Assembly (NCBI RefSeq): GCF_900105055.1
Contig: NZ_FNTA01000004.1
Location: 1,240,001-1,304,000 of the forward strand
DNA from: Amycolatopsis lurida
GTDB lineage: Bacteria > Actinomycetota > Actinomycetes > Mycobacteriales > Pseudonocardiaceae
Reading direction: 5' to 3'
DNA: 64,000 nt
Position numbers and translations under genes: made by a program. Position 1 is the stretch's first letter. Every line of letters starts with the position of its first letter. Below, piece after piece: positions 13,480-64,000 of the stretch. The notes under the pieces were generated by a model, which saw only the letters and a program-made list of their open reading frames with translations, was not told the origin of the DNA and ran no database searches.

Positions 13480-16400
13480 ATGTCCACGCTGGCCAGACTG
13501 AGCCTGCGCAACCGAAGTCTCATCGGGCTGCTCGCCCTGGTGGTGATCGGCTTCGGCGCCTTCGCCCTGCCACAGCTGAAGCAGCAACTGTTCCCGTCAC
13601 TGCAGTTCCCGCAGGCGCAGATCATCACGCCGTACGCGGGCGCGTCGCCGGACGCGGTCGACCGTCAGGTCACCGAGCCGCTCGAAGGCGGGCTGCAGGG
13701 ATTGAAGGGGCTCGAAGAACTGAGCTCGACGTCGTCGGAGGGGCTGTCGCGGATCACCGCGCAGTTCGAGTTCGGCACGGACATCGACGCGGCGGTCGGG
13801 CAGATCCAGCGCGTCGTCGACGGGCTGAAGACACGGCTGCCGCAGAACAGCGAGTCGACGGTCTCGGCGGGCTCCACCGACGATCTCCCGGTCGTGCTGC
13901 TCGCCGCCGGGACCACCGGTGACCCGCAGGCGCTCGCGCCCGCGCTGACCGGGGAGGTCGCGCCGGAACTGCGGAAGATCGACGGTGTCCGCGAGGTCGA
14001 GGTGACCGGCGCGCGGCAGCCGCGGGTGACCATCGCGCTGGACTACGCGAAGCTGGCGGCCGCGGGGGTCGACCCGTCGTCGATCGCCACCACGCTGCAG
14101 ACCGCCGGTGCCGCCGTCCCGGCCGGGACGCTGACCGAAGGCGGCAAGACGCTCACCGTCCAGGTCGGCGGCGGACCGACCACAGTGGACACGATCAAGA
14201 ACCTTTACCTCACGCCGTCGCAGCCTTCCCGTCCCGGCGCGCAGGCGGGCAAGCCCGTGAAGCTCGGTGACGTCGCGGACGTCCAGGCCGGATTCGCGCC
14301 GCCGACGTCGATCACGCGCACCAACGGCAAGCCGAGCCTCGGGCTCTCGATCACCATGGTGGAGAACGGGAACGCGGTCGCGATCTCGGAAGCGGTGCGG
14401 GACAAGCTGCCCGAGCTGTCGAAGAAGATCGGCGCCGAGATGAGCGTCGTGTTCGACCAGGGCACGCCGGTCAAGGACGCGATCAGCGGCCTGACCACCG
14501 AAGGCCTGCTCGGGCTGGCGTTCGCGGTCGTGGTGATCCTGCTGTTCCTGATGTCGGTGCGCTCCACCCTGGTGACGGCGGTGTCGATCCCGCTGTCGGT
14601 GGTCGTGGCGCTGCTGGCGCTGTGGACCGGAGACCTGTCGCTGAACCTGCTCACCCTCGGCGCGCTCACCATCGCCATCGGGCGCGTGGTCGACGACTCG
14701 ATCGTGGTGCTGGAGAACATCAAACGACATCTGGCGTACGGCGAGGAGAAACAGCGGGCGGTCCTCGACGGCGTGCGCGAGGTCGCGGGCGCCGTGACGT
14801 CGTCCACCCTCACCACGGTCGCGGTGTTCCTGCCGATCGCCTTCGTGGGCGGGTTCGTCGGCGAGCTGTTCTCGCCGTTCGCGATCACGGTCACCGTGGC
14901 ACTGCTGGCGTCGCTGCTGGTGTCGCTGACGATCGTGCCGGTGCTCGCGTACTGGTTCCTCAAGCCGCCCAAGACCCCCGCGAACGAGCACGAGGCCGAG
15001 GTCACGCGCCAAGCCGCCGAAGACAAGGAACGCCGCGGGCTGCTGCAGCGCGGATACGTTCCGGTGATCCGGTTCGCCACCCGGCGCCGCGTCACCGTGG
15101 TACTGCTGGCACTGATCATCTTCGGCGGCACGGTCGGACTGGCCTCGCAGCTGAACACCAACTTCCTCGACCAGTCCGGCTCGACGACGCTGAGCCTTTC
15201 GCAGAAGCTGCCGCCCGGCACCAGTTCCGAGGCCAAGGAGAAGGCCGCCGGCGCGGTCGAGCAGGCGCTCGCCGCCGAACCCGCCGTCGAGACCTACCAG
15301 GTGAGCATCGGCGGGGGCGGTTTCTTCGGTGGCGGCGGGATGGCGACCAGCATCCAGGCCACCGTCGCCAAGGACACCGACCTCGACGCCCTCTCCGAGC
15401 GGCTGCGGGGCAAACTCGACAAGCCGGAACTCGGCGAGGTCAAGATCGGTGCGGAAGCGGGCGGGTTCAACTCGGACCAGATCTCGATCACCGTCACCGC
15501 ACCGAACGAAGCGGCGCTGAAGCCCGCCGCCGAGCAGGTCCGCCAGGCGCTGTCCGGTGTCCCGGATCTGACCGAGGTGACCAGTGACCTCGCGCAGGGC
15601 TCGCCGCGCGTACAGGTCGAGGTCGACGCCGCCAAGGCCGCCGCGAGCGGGCTTTCGGCGACCACGATCGGCCAGATCGCGAACCAGGCCATCGCCGGCC
15701 GCACGGTGACCCAGCTGCCGGTCGACGGCCAGCGCACGGACATCGTGCTGCGCGCGGGCACGGCCCCGGTGTCGGTCGACGCGGTCAAGGCACTCCCGAT
15801 CCCGAGCGCCGCCGGCGTCGTCCGGCTCGACTCGGTCGCCAACGTGTCCACAGTGGACGGCCCGGCCGCGGTGCACCGCACCTCGGGCGAGCTGAGCACC
15901 ACGGTCACCGCCAAGAACACCGGCGCGGACCTGGCCGCCACCACGAAGGCCATTCAGTCCAAGTTGGACGGCCTGACCTTCACCGGCGGCGCGGCGTACA
16001 AGCTCGGCGGCGTCAGCGAGGACCAGCAGGAGGCCTTCGGGAACCTGTTCCTCGCGCTGCTGGCCGCGGTCGCGATCGTGTACCTGATCATGGTGGCGAC
16101 GTTCCGCAGCCTGATCCAGCCGCTGATCCTGCTGGTGTCGATCCCGTTCGCGGCGACCGGCGCGATCGGGCTCCTCCTGGCCACCGGAACCGCGCTGGGC
16201 CTGCCCGCGCTGATCGGGATGCTGATGCTCGTCGGCATCGTGGTGACCAACGCGATCGTGCTGATCGATCTGATCAACCAGTACCGGGCTTCGGGGATGA
16301 GCGTCGCCGACGCCGTCGTCGAAGGCGGCAGGCGACGGCTGCGGCCGATCCTGATGACCGCGGCGGCGACCATCTTCGCGCTGGTCCCGATGGCGCTCGG

Positions 16401-60505: not shown

Positions 60506-60548
60506 CGTCCTGCCGGCGAGCTTCCCGAGGAAAGCCGCCGGCAGGACG
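60506..60548. terminator. Hairpin upstream of the acetyltransferase gene
   Basis: CGTCCTGCCGGCG and CGCCGGCAGGACG make a perfect 13-bp stem with a 17-base loop. It ends transcription coming leftward from the DUF1996 gene. Confidence 0.65.
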
Positions 60549-60602
60549 GGGTGAATGCTTGCGGAGCGTTCTTCAGTTGTGTCGATCGATTTCCGGGTAG
60601 GG

Positions 60603-60648
60603 CCGGCCCGGCGGATGGGTGAGGTGTAGGGGGGACCCGCCGGGCCGG
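60603..60648 (-). terminator. Hairpin after the DUF1996 gene
   Basis: CCGGCCCGGCGG and CCGCCGGGCCGG form a 12-bp GC stem, 47 bases after the DUF1996 stop. With the next hairpin it makes a tandem terminator. Confidence 0.65.
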
Positions 60649-60694
60649 AGTATCTTCCTTTCTCTTCGCAGGTTCCTGCTTCCGCTTCAGGGCG

Positions 60695-61780
60695 TCATTC
60701 GCGGCACTTGCGGCCTTCGTTGACGCAGTCGACGAGGCGATCCATGATCCGGTCGGACATCACGTTCGCGAAATCGTCGTGGTCGGAGAACGGGTTGTGA
60801 TCCTCTTCGGTGAACGAGTCCACTTTGTACTGGCCGGCGGCCTGGATCTGCCGCGGGATCTCGTAGGTCAGCGAGATGGTGAGCTCCGGGACGGCGGTGA
60901 GGCCGTTCGCGCATTCGCCGTTCTCGTCGGGATACTTGATGTGGTCCCGGTGGTTTTCGCTGTCGATGTTGTCGCCGTCGAGACAGCTCGGGAACGTGTG
61001 CACCCGCTTGACGTCACTGCCCTCGGGGCAGATCGGGTACTGCTTGATGAGCCTGTTCTCGAAGCCGGTGCAGGTCCAGCTCTCCCGCGCGTTGGCGGGC
61101 CCGTTCGTGGAGACCTTCGCGTCACCGTAAAGGATCCGGAGGAACTTCGGCATCTCCTTCACCTTCTCCCTGGCGTTTCCCTTGAAGGTGATGTCGACGA
61201 CCGCGGGGCGCTGGATCTCACCGTCATTGCCGGCGAGTTCGTTGTCCGCGTTCGGTTCTTCCAGCTGAGCCTCGTCCTGCCGGTTCCGGTCACCCTGCCG
61301 CCGCTCTCGGCCCTGTTGTTCTTCGGCTTCCTCCGCGGCGTCGATCCGCACCACCGGCCAGAAGTACGTCGACTCGTCGCCGTTGCGGCAGGTGGTACCG
61401 GCGCCCAGCAGGCTGTCGTTGTCCGAATCCGCGTTCGTGGAAAGGTTTCCGACGTAATCGTGCAGATGCTGGGCGCCGTTGCGCACCCCCGGCTGCGCGA
61501 TGAAGTTGTCGGGATTGAAATGCCCGTTCTCGTTCCGGCCGCAGTCGACGGTGAACGAGCCGGTGGAGGCGTTCCGGCCCGGCTCCGGCTTGTCGATGTT
61601 CGGCCGGACCCGGGTGATGTCCACGAACTGCGACTTGTCCACCTCGTCCGCGGCGGCGCGTTCGGGGTCGCCGGTCGTGGTGGACACCACCAGACCGCCG
61701 ACCGCGATCGACAAGCCCAGCAACGCGGTCGCGATCTTGGTCCTGCGGGCGATCCGATGGCGCCCTTGATTTCGTGCCAT
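60695..61780 (-). CDS. Exported DUF1996-family protein
   Basis: A 361-residue protein with an N-terminal basic region and one hydrophobic segment (KIATALLGLSIAVGGLVV, about 15-32), so it is secreted or anchored by this segment. The DUF1996 domain begins after residue 50: FTVDCGRNENGHFNPDNF and QHLHDYVGN, later FPSCLDGDNIDSENHRDHIKYP. A charged, Gln/Glu/Arg-rich insert (about 147-185) interrupts it. The conserved His/Asp residues and cysteines suggest a metal or glycan-binding or enzymatic role, not established. A SigL-type promoter lies upstream, 140 bases before the start. Confidence 0.82.
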   Translation of the reverse strand: MARNQGRHRIARRTKIATALLGLSIAVGGLVVSTTTGDPERAAADEVDKSQFVDITRVRPNIDKPEPGRNASTGSFTVDCGRNENGHFNPDNFIAQPGVRNGAQHLHDYVGNLSTNADSDNDSLLGAGTTCRNGDESTYFWPVVRIDAAEEAEEQQGRERRQGDRNRQDEAQLEEPNADNELAGNDGEIQRPAVVDITFKGNAREKVKEMPKFLRILYGDAKVSTNGPANARESWTCTGFENRLIKQYPICPEGSDVKRVHTFPSCLDGDNIDSENHRDHIKYPDENGECANGLTAVPELTISLTYEIPRQIQAAGQYKVDSFTEEDHNPFSDHDDFANVMSDRIMDRLVDCVNEGRKCRE

Positions 61781-61919
61781 TAGCTGCTCACCTCATTCTT
61801 TTCCGGGCACGCCGATCACTCGCGCCCGGGCATGAGCCACGCATTTGTCGAATACGCCGATTACCGCATTCGTGGCGAACCCTTCTGTTCGCCCGCCGAT
61901 TCAGATCCGGCTACTGGGG

Positions 61920-61947
61920 AATACGGTTCCAGCCGAGGACCGGTTCA
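61920..61947 (-). promoter_or_regulatory. SigL-type ECF promoter of the DUF1996 gene
   Basis: On the minus strand TGAACC-N16-CGTATT. The same hexamers and spacing occur at 63371-63398. The transcript would carry a leader of about 130 bases. Confidence 0.68.
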
Positions 61948-61982
61948 AAACGCGATCCGGCCGTTATCTTTCCGTTATAAGA

Positions 61983-62738
61983 CTACCGGCGCACGGTGGC
62001 CAGCACGGTGCCGTCCCGCTTGAGCACCTCGAAGCGTTCGATGTCGGCCTTCTGCAACGCCGTCGAACCGGTGATGACGAGCGGAGCCGGGGAACCGGGC
62101 ACGCCGTACCCCTTGGCCGGCACGCTCCAGTTGTTGACGACGTAGGCCTCCCCACCGTGGGAGTAGGCGAAAAGCTGGCAGGTCATCGGGCCGACGAGGC
62201 CGCGCAGTTCGAGTTCGACGGCGCTGCCCCACTCCTTCTCCTGCACCGTGACCTCGGCGGCGACCGCGTTGCCCGCCTCGGACCAGCCGAACGGCGCGGC
62301 GCCGCCGTCCGGGCCCGCCTCGCGTCCCCGCGACGACGACGGAGGCGGCACCACCGACGTGACGACGGTGGGCGCGGCCTGCGTCACGATCGGTTCACGG
62401 TCGGTGAGCGAAAGGACGGTGACCGGACCGCCGACGACGAGCACGAGTACGGCGGCGGCCATCGCGAGCCGGATGATCTTGCGGCGACGGCCCGCCTTGG
62501 CCGCGTCGGCGAGCAGCATCCGCAGCACCCGCGGGCCCGGCCCCTTGACGGGCGGATCCGGCCAGCTCTTCTTGACCATGTCGAGAATGTCGGGCAGGTG
62601 GTACATCTCCACCAGTTCGACCTGACACTCGGGACACTCCAGCAGATGCGCTTCGAACCTGGCGTGATCCTCTTCGCCGAGGACGCCGAGCACGTAGGCG
62701 GCGATGTCCGTGTGGACGGTTCCGGACACCTCGCTCAC
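61983..62738 (-). CDS. Zinc-type anti-sigma factor, RslA-like
   Basis: A 251-residue membrane anti-sigma factor. The N-terminal zinc-binding anti-sigma motif H-x3-C-x2-C is in AHLLECPECQVEL (about residues 31-43); one transmembrane helix follows (RLAMAAAVLVLVVGGPVTVL, about 90-109), then an extracellular domain of about 140 residues that probably senses the signal. The length agrees with M. tuberculosis RslA (about 250 residues), which holds SigL. ATG overlaps the sigma-factor stop (ATGA), so the two are co-produced. Release on oxidation of the Cys pair is inferred. Confidence 0.86.
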   Translation of the reverse strand: MSEVSGTVHTDIAAYVLGVLGEEDHARFEAHLLECPECQVELVEMYHLPDILDMVKKSWPDPPVKGPGPRVLRMLLADAAKAGRRRKIIRLAMAAAVLVLVVGGPVTVLSLTDREPIVTQAAPTVVTSVVPPPSSSRGREAGPDGGAAPFGWSEAGNAVAAEVTVQEKEWGSAVELELRGLVGPMTCQLFAYSHGGEAYVVNNWSVPAKGYGVPGSPAPLVITGSTALQKADIERFEVLKRDGTVLATVRR

Positions 62739-63295
62739 CCCCGCTCCTGCAACGCCCTGCGCAACGCGCGCACAGCGTGGTGGATCCGCGATTTCACCGT
62801 ACCCGGCGGCACCCCGAGCGTCGCCGCGACCTCGTTCACGGTGCGGTCACGAAGATAGGTCTGCTGAACGGCCTCGCGTTGTTCCGGGGAAAGATTGCGC
62901 AGGGCCTCGTAAACGATCATGGCCGCGAGCGTCTTCTCCGATTCGTCCGGCACTCCGATCGAATCCGACTCCAGTTCCTCCACCTCTTGAGGGCGGGCGC
63001 TCCGGCTCCGCCAGCCGTCGATGACGATGCGCCTGGCCACGGTGAACAGCCAGGCGCGCAGCATTTCCGGCTGCCGGTCGAGTTTGCCGGCGTTGCGCCA
63101 CGCCTTGATGAGCGTCTCCTGGACCACGTCCTCGGCCCACTGGCGATCGTGGCCGGTCAGCTTCAGCACGAACGCCATCAGGCTGGACCCGAACTCCTGG
63201 TACAACGCCCTGATGAGGTCGTCATGCCCGTTCGACGCGGGTTCATGATCGACGATTGGCTGCAGTATCCGAGAGTGGCGTCCCACGCGGCACAT
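62735..63295 (-). CDS. sigL: ECF sigma factor, SigL-like
   Basis: A 186-residue extracytoplasmic-function sigma factor. Region 2 is visible in DDLIRALYQEFGSSLMAFVLKLTGHDRQWAEDVVQETLIKAWRN and RAWLFTVARRIVIDGWR; region 4 in LSPEQREAVQQTYLRDRTVNEVAATLGVPPGTVKSRIHHAVRALR. The following gene encodes its zinc anti-sigma factor. The promoter motif TGAACC-N16-CGTAT in front of the two flanking genes is the one known for mycobacterial SigL, which supports the identification. The start ATG 63295 has no good ribosome site, so the true start may be downstream. Confidence 0.83.
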   Translation of the reverse strand: MCRVGRHSRILQPIVDHEPASNGHDDLIRALYQEFGSSLMAFVLKLTGHDRQWAEDVVQETLIKAWRNAGKLDRQPEMLRAWLFTVARRIVIDGWRSRSARPQEVEELESDSIGVPDESEKTLAAMIVYEALRNLSPEQREAVQQTYLRDRTVNEVAATLGVPPGTVKSRIHHAVRALRRALQERG

Positions 63296-63370
63296 CTTTG
63301 TGGGCTCAGGGGCGATAAGTCCAGTACCAAAACCGGCTCGGGCCGGTTCTCCGAGCGCGGGAAAGTTTTT

Positions 63371-63398
63371 TGAACCGTTTCCCGCTCGTGACCGTATC
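63371..63398 (+). promoter_or_regulatory. SigL-type ECF promoter of the Y-X4-D lipoprotein gene
   Basis: TGAACC-N16-CGTATC, pointing to the lipoprotein gene 147 bases downstream. GCGGGAAA/TTTCCCGC (63357-63364, 63378-63385) flanks the -35 as an inverted repeat. Confidence 0.66.
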
Positions 63399-63544
63399 CC
63401 CTACCGAAGACCCCCGACCCGGCGCTGTCCCCCGCATCGCCGAATCCACTGTGGATCATGACTGTCCATAGTGGAATTGAACCTGCCTGCACACCATCTC
63501 CCCGCGGTGATGGCGTTCTCCTCTGCCCCGACAGGAGGATTTCC

Positions 63545-64000
63545 GTGAACCCCGTGTCACGCTCGGTCATACCTCTGACCCTCACCCTGGCCGCGGTCGC
63601 GCTGACCTCGGCCTGCACCACCGGTACCGCGGGACCGAACGGCACTCCGGGCACGGCCCCGGCCGCCGGAGCGGCGGAAATCCCGGGAATGCCCGACCCC
63701 TCGGCCGAACCGGCTCCCGGTGTCACGGCGGCGATCCTGTTCGACCTCGGCCCGATCGTCACCGACACCAATGGCTTCACGCTTTATCGCTACGACAAGG
63801 ACACGGTGAATCCGCCCAAGTCGACGTGCACCGAAACCTGTTCGCGGACCTGGATTCCCGCCAAGGCAGGCGGCGATCTCGTGGTCACCGGGATCGATCG
63901 CGCCCTGGTCGGCAGCGTGACCAGGGACGACGGCACCGAGCAGGTCACGCTCGCGGGCTGGCCGCTCTACCGCAACGCCGGCGACGCGATGCCCGGCAAC
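63545..64000 (+). CDS. Lipoprotein with Y-X4-D repeats, cut by the window end
   Basis: A secreted lipoprotein, 152 residues visible and open at the window edge. The signal peptide ends in the lipobox TSAC (Cys24), followed by a Gly/Pro/Ala linker. The mature part has the 'secreted repeat' features of the PF03640-type family: GFTLYRYDKDTVNPPKSTC, that is Y-x4-D followed by CTETCSRTW, and a second motif in GWPLYRNAGDAMPGN. Family members (such as SCO0930 of Streptomyces) are of unknown function, perhaps binding haem or redox partners. GTG 63545 follows AGGAGG. It is preceded by a SigL-type promoter. Confidence 0.85.
   Translation, partial: MNPVSRSVIPLTLTLAAVALTSACTTGTAGPNGTPGTAPAAGAAEIPGMPDPSAEPAPGVTAAILFDLGPIVTDTNGFTLYRYDKDTVNPPKSTCTETCSRTWIPAKAGGDLVVTGIDRALVGSVTRDDGTEQVTLAGWPLYRNAGDAMPGN

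Follow-up and report, generated by a model that had tools for sequence, protein, structure and literature searches.

Why does an extracytoplasmic function (ECF) sigma factor operon lie between two promoter-like elements of the same sequence, each facing a gene for an exported protein? The question arises from a stretch of 64,000 nucleotides (nt) of Amycolatopsis lurida, from a genus of antibiotic-producing soil bacteria (C4:1240001-1304000 of the 9.05-Mb genome), which we refer to as the window. An earlier note on this DNA had placed TGAACC-N16-CGTAT at the same spacing before a DUF1996 gene on the minus strand and a lipoprotein gene on the plus strand, with an ECF sigma/anti-sigma pair between them, and had joined the two genes in one sigma-linked regulon. 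Our analysis bears out these points. The exact pattern has exactly two sites in the window, before these two genes, and the next best matches carry two mismatches; coordinates and Pfam assignments agree that the sigma/anti-sigma pair sits between them. Conservation of the promoters and their co-occurrence with the sigma factor, here named sigma-A, strongly support a shared, predicted regulon of this adjacent, stress-type ECF factor. We found no paper on this Amycolatopsis regulon in the open-access literature.

Two promoters flanking the sigma-A operon

The locus comprises the following features.

60695-61780, minus strand: gene for an exported DUF1996 protein, ATG at 61780 (Pfam DUF1996, E 7e-23)
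61947-61921, minus strand: sigma-A promoter predicted before the DUF1996 gene, TTTTGAACC-N16-CGTAT, exact match
61983-62738, minus strand: membrane-anchored zinc anti-sigma factor (zf-HC2); its start overlaps the sigma-A stop
62735-63295, minus strand: ECF sigma factor, sigma-A (Pfam Sigma70_r2 and Sigma70_r4/r4_2 only)
63371-63397, plus strand: sigma-A promoter predicted before the Lipoprotein_15 operon, TTTTTTGAACC-N16-CGTATC, exact match
63445-63475, plus strand: dyad TCCACTGTGGA-N9-TCCATAGTGGA within the leader of the lipoprotein gene, which may be a hairpin or an operator
63545-64000, plus strand: Lipoprotein_15 lipoprotein gene (Pfam), GTG at 63545, continuing past the window end
L141:4090-7025: remainder of the Lipoprotein_15 operon past the window end (Pfam)

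The sigma-A/anti-sigma operon is thus flanked by the two promoters, which face the DUF1996 and Lipoprotein_15 genes. The −35 and −10 boxes are identical between them and the 16-nt spacers differ, so that the "identical promoters" of the earlier note are identical in their boxes only. In 20,000 first-order shuffles of 60695-64000, exact sites occurred at a mean of 0.0006 per shuffle, and two sites in none. Pattern searches, from which the genome-wide statistics were taken, gave 6 exact sites with the N16 spacing in the genome, as compared with 28 over the 30 other spacings from N8 to N38 (0.93 each; Poisson P ~0.0004).

We then followed both promoters through orthologous loci drawn from named genomes (loci are labelled L and genomes G). 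The Lipoprotein_15 promoter stands at the same place, with CGTAT, in all 27 Amycolatopsis/Qaidamihabitans loci (L031-L057) as well as in L083 and L085, and a T-run usually precedes it in these; in L058-L082, which come from Lentzea/Umezawaea apart from one record labelled Nocardia, it mostly reads CGTAC. The DUF1996 promoter is retained in nearly all Amycolatopsis loci that have a DUF1996 gene at that position. Among its 24 different sequences, TGAACC and CCGTAT are invariant, while other spacer columns go down to 33-83% identity; variants are found in A. xylanica (TTAAACC-N16-CGTATCC; L042) and Qaidamihabitans (TGAACT with a 17-nt spacer; L041). Because the boxes stay invariant and the spacers do not when Amycolatopsis and a close relative are compared, phylogenetic footprinting indicates that both promoters are real. 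Dozens of species retain the promoter.

Rearranged loci add to this picture. Lentzea/Umezawaea loci have neither a DUF1996 gene beside the sigma operon nor a DUF1996 promoter, and the lipoprotein promoter alone is present. A second Lipoprotein_15 gene, preceded by TGAACC-N17-CGTGTG, occupies the DUF1996 position in A. anabasis (L056). In G161 (L276), the lipoprotein is fused to DUF4142, and its gene, although 68 kb away from sigma-A, retains a TGAACC-N16-CGTATCCCC promoter.

Sigma-A (186 amino acids) has regions 2 and 4 only, which places it among the ECF factors, and its best PDB match is Mycobacterium tuberculosis SigL (6dv9, E 6.8e-33). The protein is 100% identical in Amycolatopsis roodepoortensis, keratiniphila, orientalis and regifaucium. 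The anti-sigma factor carries the motif HLLECPEC, that is, the H-X3-C-X2-C of zinc-associated anti-sigma factors, and its only significant PDB match is RslA (3hug_B, E 7e-7), which spans the CPEC motif. Since the two genes overlap, they are probably co-transcribed. The lipoprotein has Y-X-[FWY]-X2-D repeats and scores 97.5 bits over two stretches with Lipoprotein_15 (PF03640), above the gathering score; with the model of the SCO0930 lipoprotein family (NF040526) it reaches 154 bits against a cut-off of 275 and is not a member. Its gene heads a tightly packed, co-directional, predicted operon that continues with DUF4142, Ferric_reduct, a small ferredoxin (Fer4_15) and a Pyr_redox_2 reductase. 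Structure prediction for the DUF1996 protein, from a 23-sequence alignment, gave a predicted local distance difference test score of only 38. At 60507-60650, 3′ of the DUF1996 gene, we noted two long inverted repeats that look by eye like terminator-type hairpins.

Co-occurrence, further members and leaders

In 60 Amycolatopsis genomes, with sigma-A counted as present at an identity of at least 73%, TTGAACC-N16-CGTATC was found in 44/44 genomes with sigma-A and in 0/16 without it. The lipoprotein site is linked to sigma-A in most of the Amycolatopsis genomes in this count. The promoters, their conservation and their co-occurrence with sigma-A are in this sense properties of the sequences themselves.

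The regulon had been described as local. This does not hold, as at least two of the other loci among the six exact genomic sites carry a conserved promoter. One lies upstream of a DUF305 lipoprotein gene (C4:4488740) and is conserved in 17/17 orthologs, with CGTAT in all; the more distant G165 has a DUF305 gene with the same boxes and another spacer. The other lies upstream of the gene for a 193-amino-acid secreted protein (C4:4912239) and is kept in about 20 orthologs, with CGTGT in a few species. A second DUF1996 gene (C4:2582420) is preceded by TTTTGAACC-N16-CGTTT. Upstream of a second DUF1996 gene and pointing away from it, a conserved TTTGAACC-N16-CGTATCCC promoter was seen in many A. rifamycinica-group genomes (L272:2186, L273:2016, L274:2175); it may yield a small or antisense RNA, because no conserved open reading frame follows.

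The two leaders were said to be unusually long. From the −10 box to the start codon there are about 140 nt for the DUF1996 gene and 147 nt for the lipoprotein gene, and the expected leader lengths of about 130-145 nt stand for A. lurida, with estimates of about 133-141 nt. Their length is not a conserved property: L037 has a much shorter DUF1996 leader, in Lentzea the lipoprotein gene has a short one, and the leaders of the DUF305 and secreted-protein genes measure ~40 nt.

The dyad in the lipoprotein leader consists of two near-palindromic copies of TCCACNGTGGA, 20 nt apart. It is partly retained in 19 Amycolatopsis-group leaders, with one compensatory stem change, and is absent from the Lentzea lipoprotein leaders and from the DUF1996 leader. 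The leader RNA had no Rfam match, and since one compensatory change is too weak, the dyad is not callable as a structured RNA. Allowing up to one mismatch, TCCACNGTGGA occurs 10 times in the window (for example at 15847, 21229, 36201 and 63445) against 2.2 expected, a number reached by 0/100 shuffles; it is possibly the binding site of some regulator.

SigL-type paralogs and rival explanations

Sigma-A, or A, is one of four SigL-type ECF factors in the A. lurida genome, together with the paralogs B, C and D. A TGAACC-N16-CGTGT promoter of its own precedes paralog C in six further genomes, and paralog D has a CGTGT site upstream in the A. lurida genome. For paralog B, the promoter reads AGAACC-N16-CGTACC or TGAACC-N16-CGTAGC in the majority of the genomes examined. 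Three observations concern the surroundings of such sites. Sigma-B, with its own AGAACC-N16-CGTACC promoter (L139:2235-2262), and a DUF4142 gene point away from each other, in a sister system to the window locus. Sigma-C has two back-to-back TGAACC-N16-CGTGT promoters (L128:2543-2570), one toward its own operon and the other toward a Rieske-type lipoprotein gene. A Zn_peptidase lipoprotein gene (L130:2012), with TTTTGAACC-N16-CGTGTCC directly upstream, is a candidate target of a CGTGT-reading paralog.

The −35 element of M. tuberculosis SigL is TGAACC, as in the window. The term "SigL-type" is apt for sigma-A at the level of the ECF subfamily, as the best PDB match indicates, and goes too far if taken to mean orthology. 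A tree, in which branches are long, makes paralog C the partner of SigL (96/93 support) rather than A or B. On NF007227, the best-matching NCBIfam subfamily, sigma-A scores 201.0 bits, one bit short of the cut-off of 202, and paralog C scores 223.9. The −10 element of SigL is T-G-N-C/A-A-G preceded by C-G; its strongest position is the G at −11, recognized by Asp60, and His54 recognizes the T at −12 (PMC6372665). Sigma-A promoters have A at −11 (CGTAT), not the G expected for a SigL ortholog, and every sigma-A locus read has Asn and Arg at the positions aligned to His54 and Asp60; the residue aligned to position 60 is Gln in paralog C and Arg in B. As the tree, the NF007227 score and the −11 base all go against orthology, sigma-A is SigL-like, working like SigL, but probably not SigL itself.

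We hypothesize that residue 60 and the −11 base are linked. Tentatively, and with more doubt than confidence, we suggest that the sigma-A and B subgroup underwent a G-to-A change at −11 together with the change at the Asp60 position, which would insulate it from the CGTGT-reading paralogs, and that its regulon might be a transmembrane electron-transfer/metal-handling module with DUF1996 and DUF305 as extracellular partners. A stricter rule, in which Arg60 is always paired with A at −11, fails outside the A/B group, where L346 encodes an ECF factor with Pro at this position and a CGTAT target.

Several observations weigh against assigning the promoters to sigma-A. The co-occurrence, strong as it is, was counted within one genus and is not phylogenetically independent. 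G154, one of the 16 genomes without sigma-A, with a 57% sigma homolog, has TGAACC-N16-CGTAT before its DUF305 gene, a site that the stricter pattern TTGAACC-N16-CGTATC missed. Of the six exact sites in the genome, two appear to be without function or part of coding sequence: the one at recF-gyrB (C4:4068474) is conserved yet probably coding, and the one at C4:2668591 is without a good target. A relaxed search for TGAAC-type sites toward sigma-A gave no autoregulatory site in the loci checked, except for a weak unrelated match in L061, whereas paralogs B and C do have such a site; autoregulation is frequent in ECF/zinc-anti-sigma regulons without being essential to them, and sigma-A may have a promoter of another form. 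Finally, cross-recognition is possible because the three further SigL-type paralogs share the −35 element.

This last point leads to a pooled SigL-type network, in which all four paralogs would read TGAACC-N16-CGTNT and sigma-A would not be the specific activator. Such pooling would account for the CGTGT sites before paralogs C and D and before another Lipoprotein_15 gene, for the CGTTT of the DUF1996 paralog and for the drift of the secreted-protein promoter to CGTGT in some species. The −11 base is nevertheless fixed gene by gene, with CGTAT before all DUF305 orthologs and CGTGTAG before the long Lipoprotein_15 gene in 30/30 orthologs, and genomes that have another SigL-type paralog but lack sigma-A have no TTGAACC-N16-CGTATC. 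We therefore regard the pooled network as unlikely.

Two further explanations can be weighed. The shared sequence could be the operator of another regulator that co-occurs with sigma-A, and the conserved dyad in the lipoprotein leader would suit such a regulator; against this, the boxes and spacing fit the ECF/SigL class (TGAAC, CGT), the same element precedes ECF-linked Lipoprotein_15 genes across the phylum, and the DUF1996 leader does not share the dyad, which makes an operator very improbable. That the sites are chance matches or remnants might be argued from the 58 TGAACC-N15-18-CGTA matches in the genome, many within coding sequence, and from the probably coding site at recF-gyrB. With 0.0006 sites expected in the region and with boxes that are invariant across species while spacers have diverged, this explanation is refuted by conservation, and we give it practically no weight.

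The predicted switch and its known relatives

We thus consider it very likely that the locus encodes the ECF factor sigma-A with a membrane zinc anti-sigma factor, and that both flanking promoters are sigma-A targets; they probably belong to an envelope redox or metal-handling regulon. Direct recognition by sigma-A, the mechanism of its release, the signal and the physiological role are what we infer from this arrangement. The anti-sigma factor would retain sigma-A at the membrane; an envelope or redox signal would then loosen this anti-sigma factor, through oxidation of its zinc/thiol site, as in RslA, or through its proteolysis. Freed sigma-A would direct RNA polymerase to TTTTGAACC-N16-CGTAT(C) and switch on the DUF1996 gene, the Lipoprotein_15/DUF4142/ferric-reductase-like/ferredoxin/ferredoxin-reductase operon, the DUF305 lipoprotein gene and the gene for the small secreted protein. 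Both exported families flanking sigma-A would then respond to one envelope signal. Electrons might pass from the reductase and ferredoxin to the ferric-reductase-like membrane protein and on toward the lipoprotein.

By analogy, the regulon probably serves to move electrons to the cell envelope or to handle metals there. Such a role fits because low iron impairs SigL mutants (PMC10449499), because fungal DUF1996 mutants show sensitivity to oxidation and to several metal ions (PMC4738358) and because the DUF305 target resembles CopM. The grouping offers a handle on the function of DUF1996, Lipoprotein_15, DUF305 and DUF4142, as a single predicted switch would control them along with a ferric-reductase-like protein, a ferredoxin and a reductase. 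The co-resident SigL-type paralogs also offer a natural experiment in how one −10 base may keep their promoters separate.

Known systems resemble this regulon in part. The fungal DUF1996 proteins share the Pfam domain but are vacuolar and eukaryotic, unlike the bacterial ones, which are predicted to be exported. The DUF305 target, a candidate metal binder, matches the NCBIfam model of the CopM-type metallochaperones at 75 bits, below its cut-off of 90. SCO0930, the namesake of the NCBIfam family nearest to the window lipoprotein, is listed in the Streptomyces SigU regulon of secreted proteins (PMC6295645). It is through SCO0930, not SigU itself, that this regulon stands beside that of sigma-A; in Streptomyces-type members of the SCO0930 family, the upstream element reads TGAACA-N17-CGTACC, with another −35 end and another spacer length. 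No adjacent ECF gene was seen at two SCO0930-family loci (L353 and L354).

SCO0930-like lipoprotein genes in several distant genomes of the phylum have TGAAC(C/T)-N16-CGTATCCCC upstream, and L346, a distant member, repeats the divergent arrangement of lipoprotein, ECF and zinc anti-sigma genes, with TGAACC-N16-CGTATCCCC. In L348, L349 and L355, probable ECF genes come after the lipoprotein gene. Since the element accompanies Lipoprotein_15 across the phylum, Lipoprotein_15 looks like an old core target and DUF1996 like a later recruit.

The closest parallel is SigL/RslA of M. tuberculosis, likewise an ECF sigma factor with a membrane zinc anti-sigma factor that carries a CPEC motif. RslA releases zinc upon oxidation (PMC2877774), and Rip1 acts on the SigL pathway (PMC10449499). 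The known SigL targets, pks7-pks10, Rv1138c-Rv1139c and recN (PMC13002591), differ from those predicted for sigma-A, and G at −11 and Asp60 in SigL stand against A and Arg in sigma-A. The sigma-A regulon is thus predicted to be of the familiar ECF/zinc-anti-sigma kind, with targets of its own.

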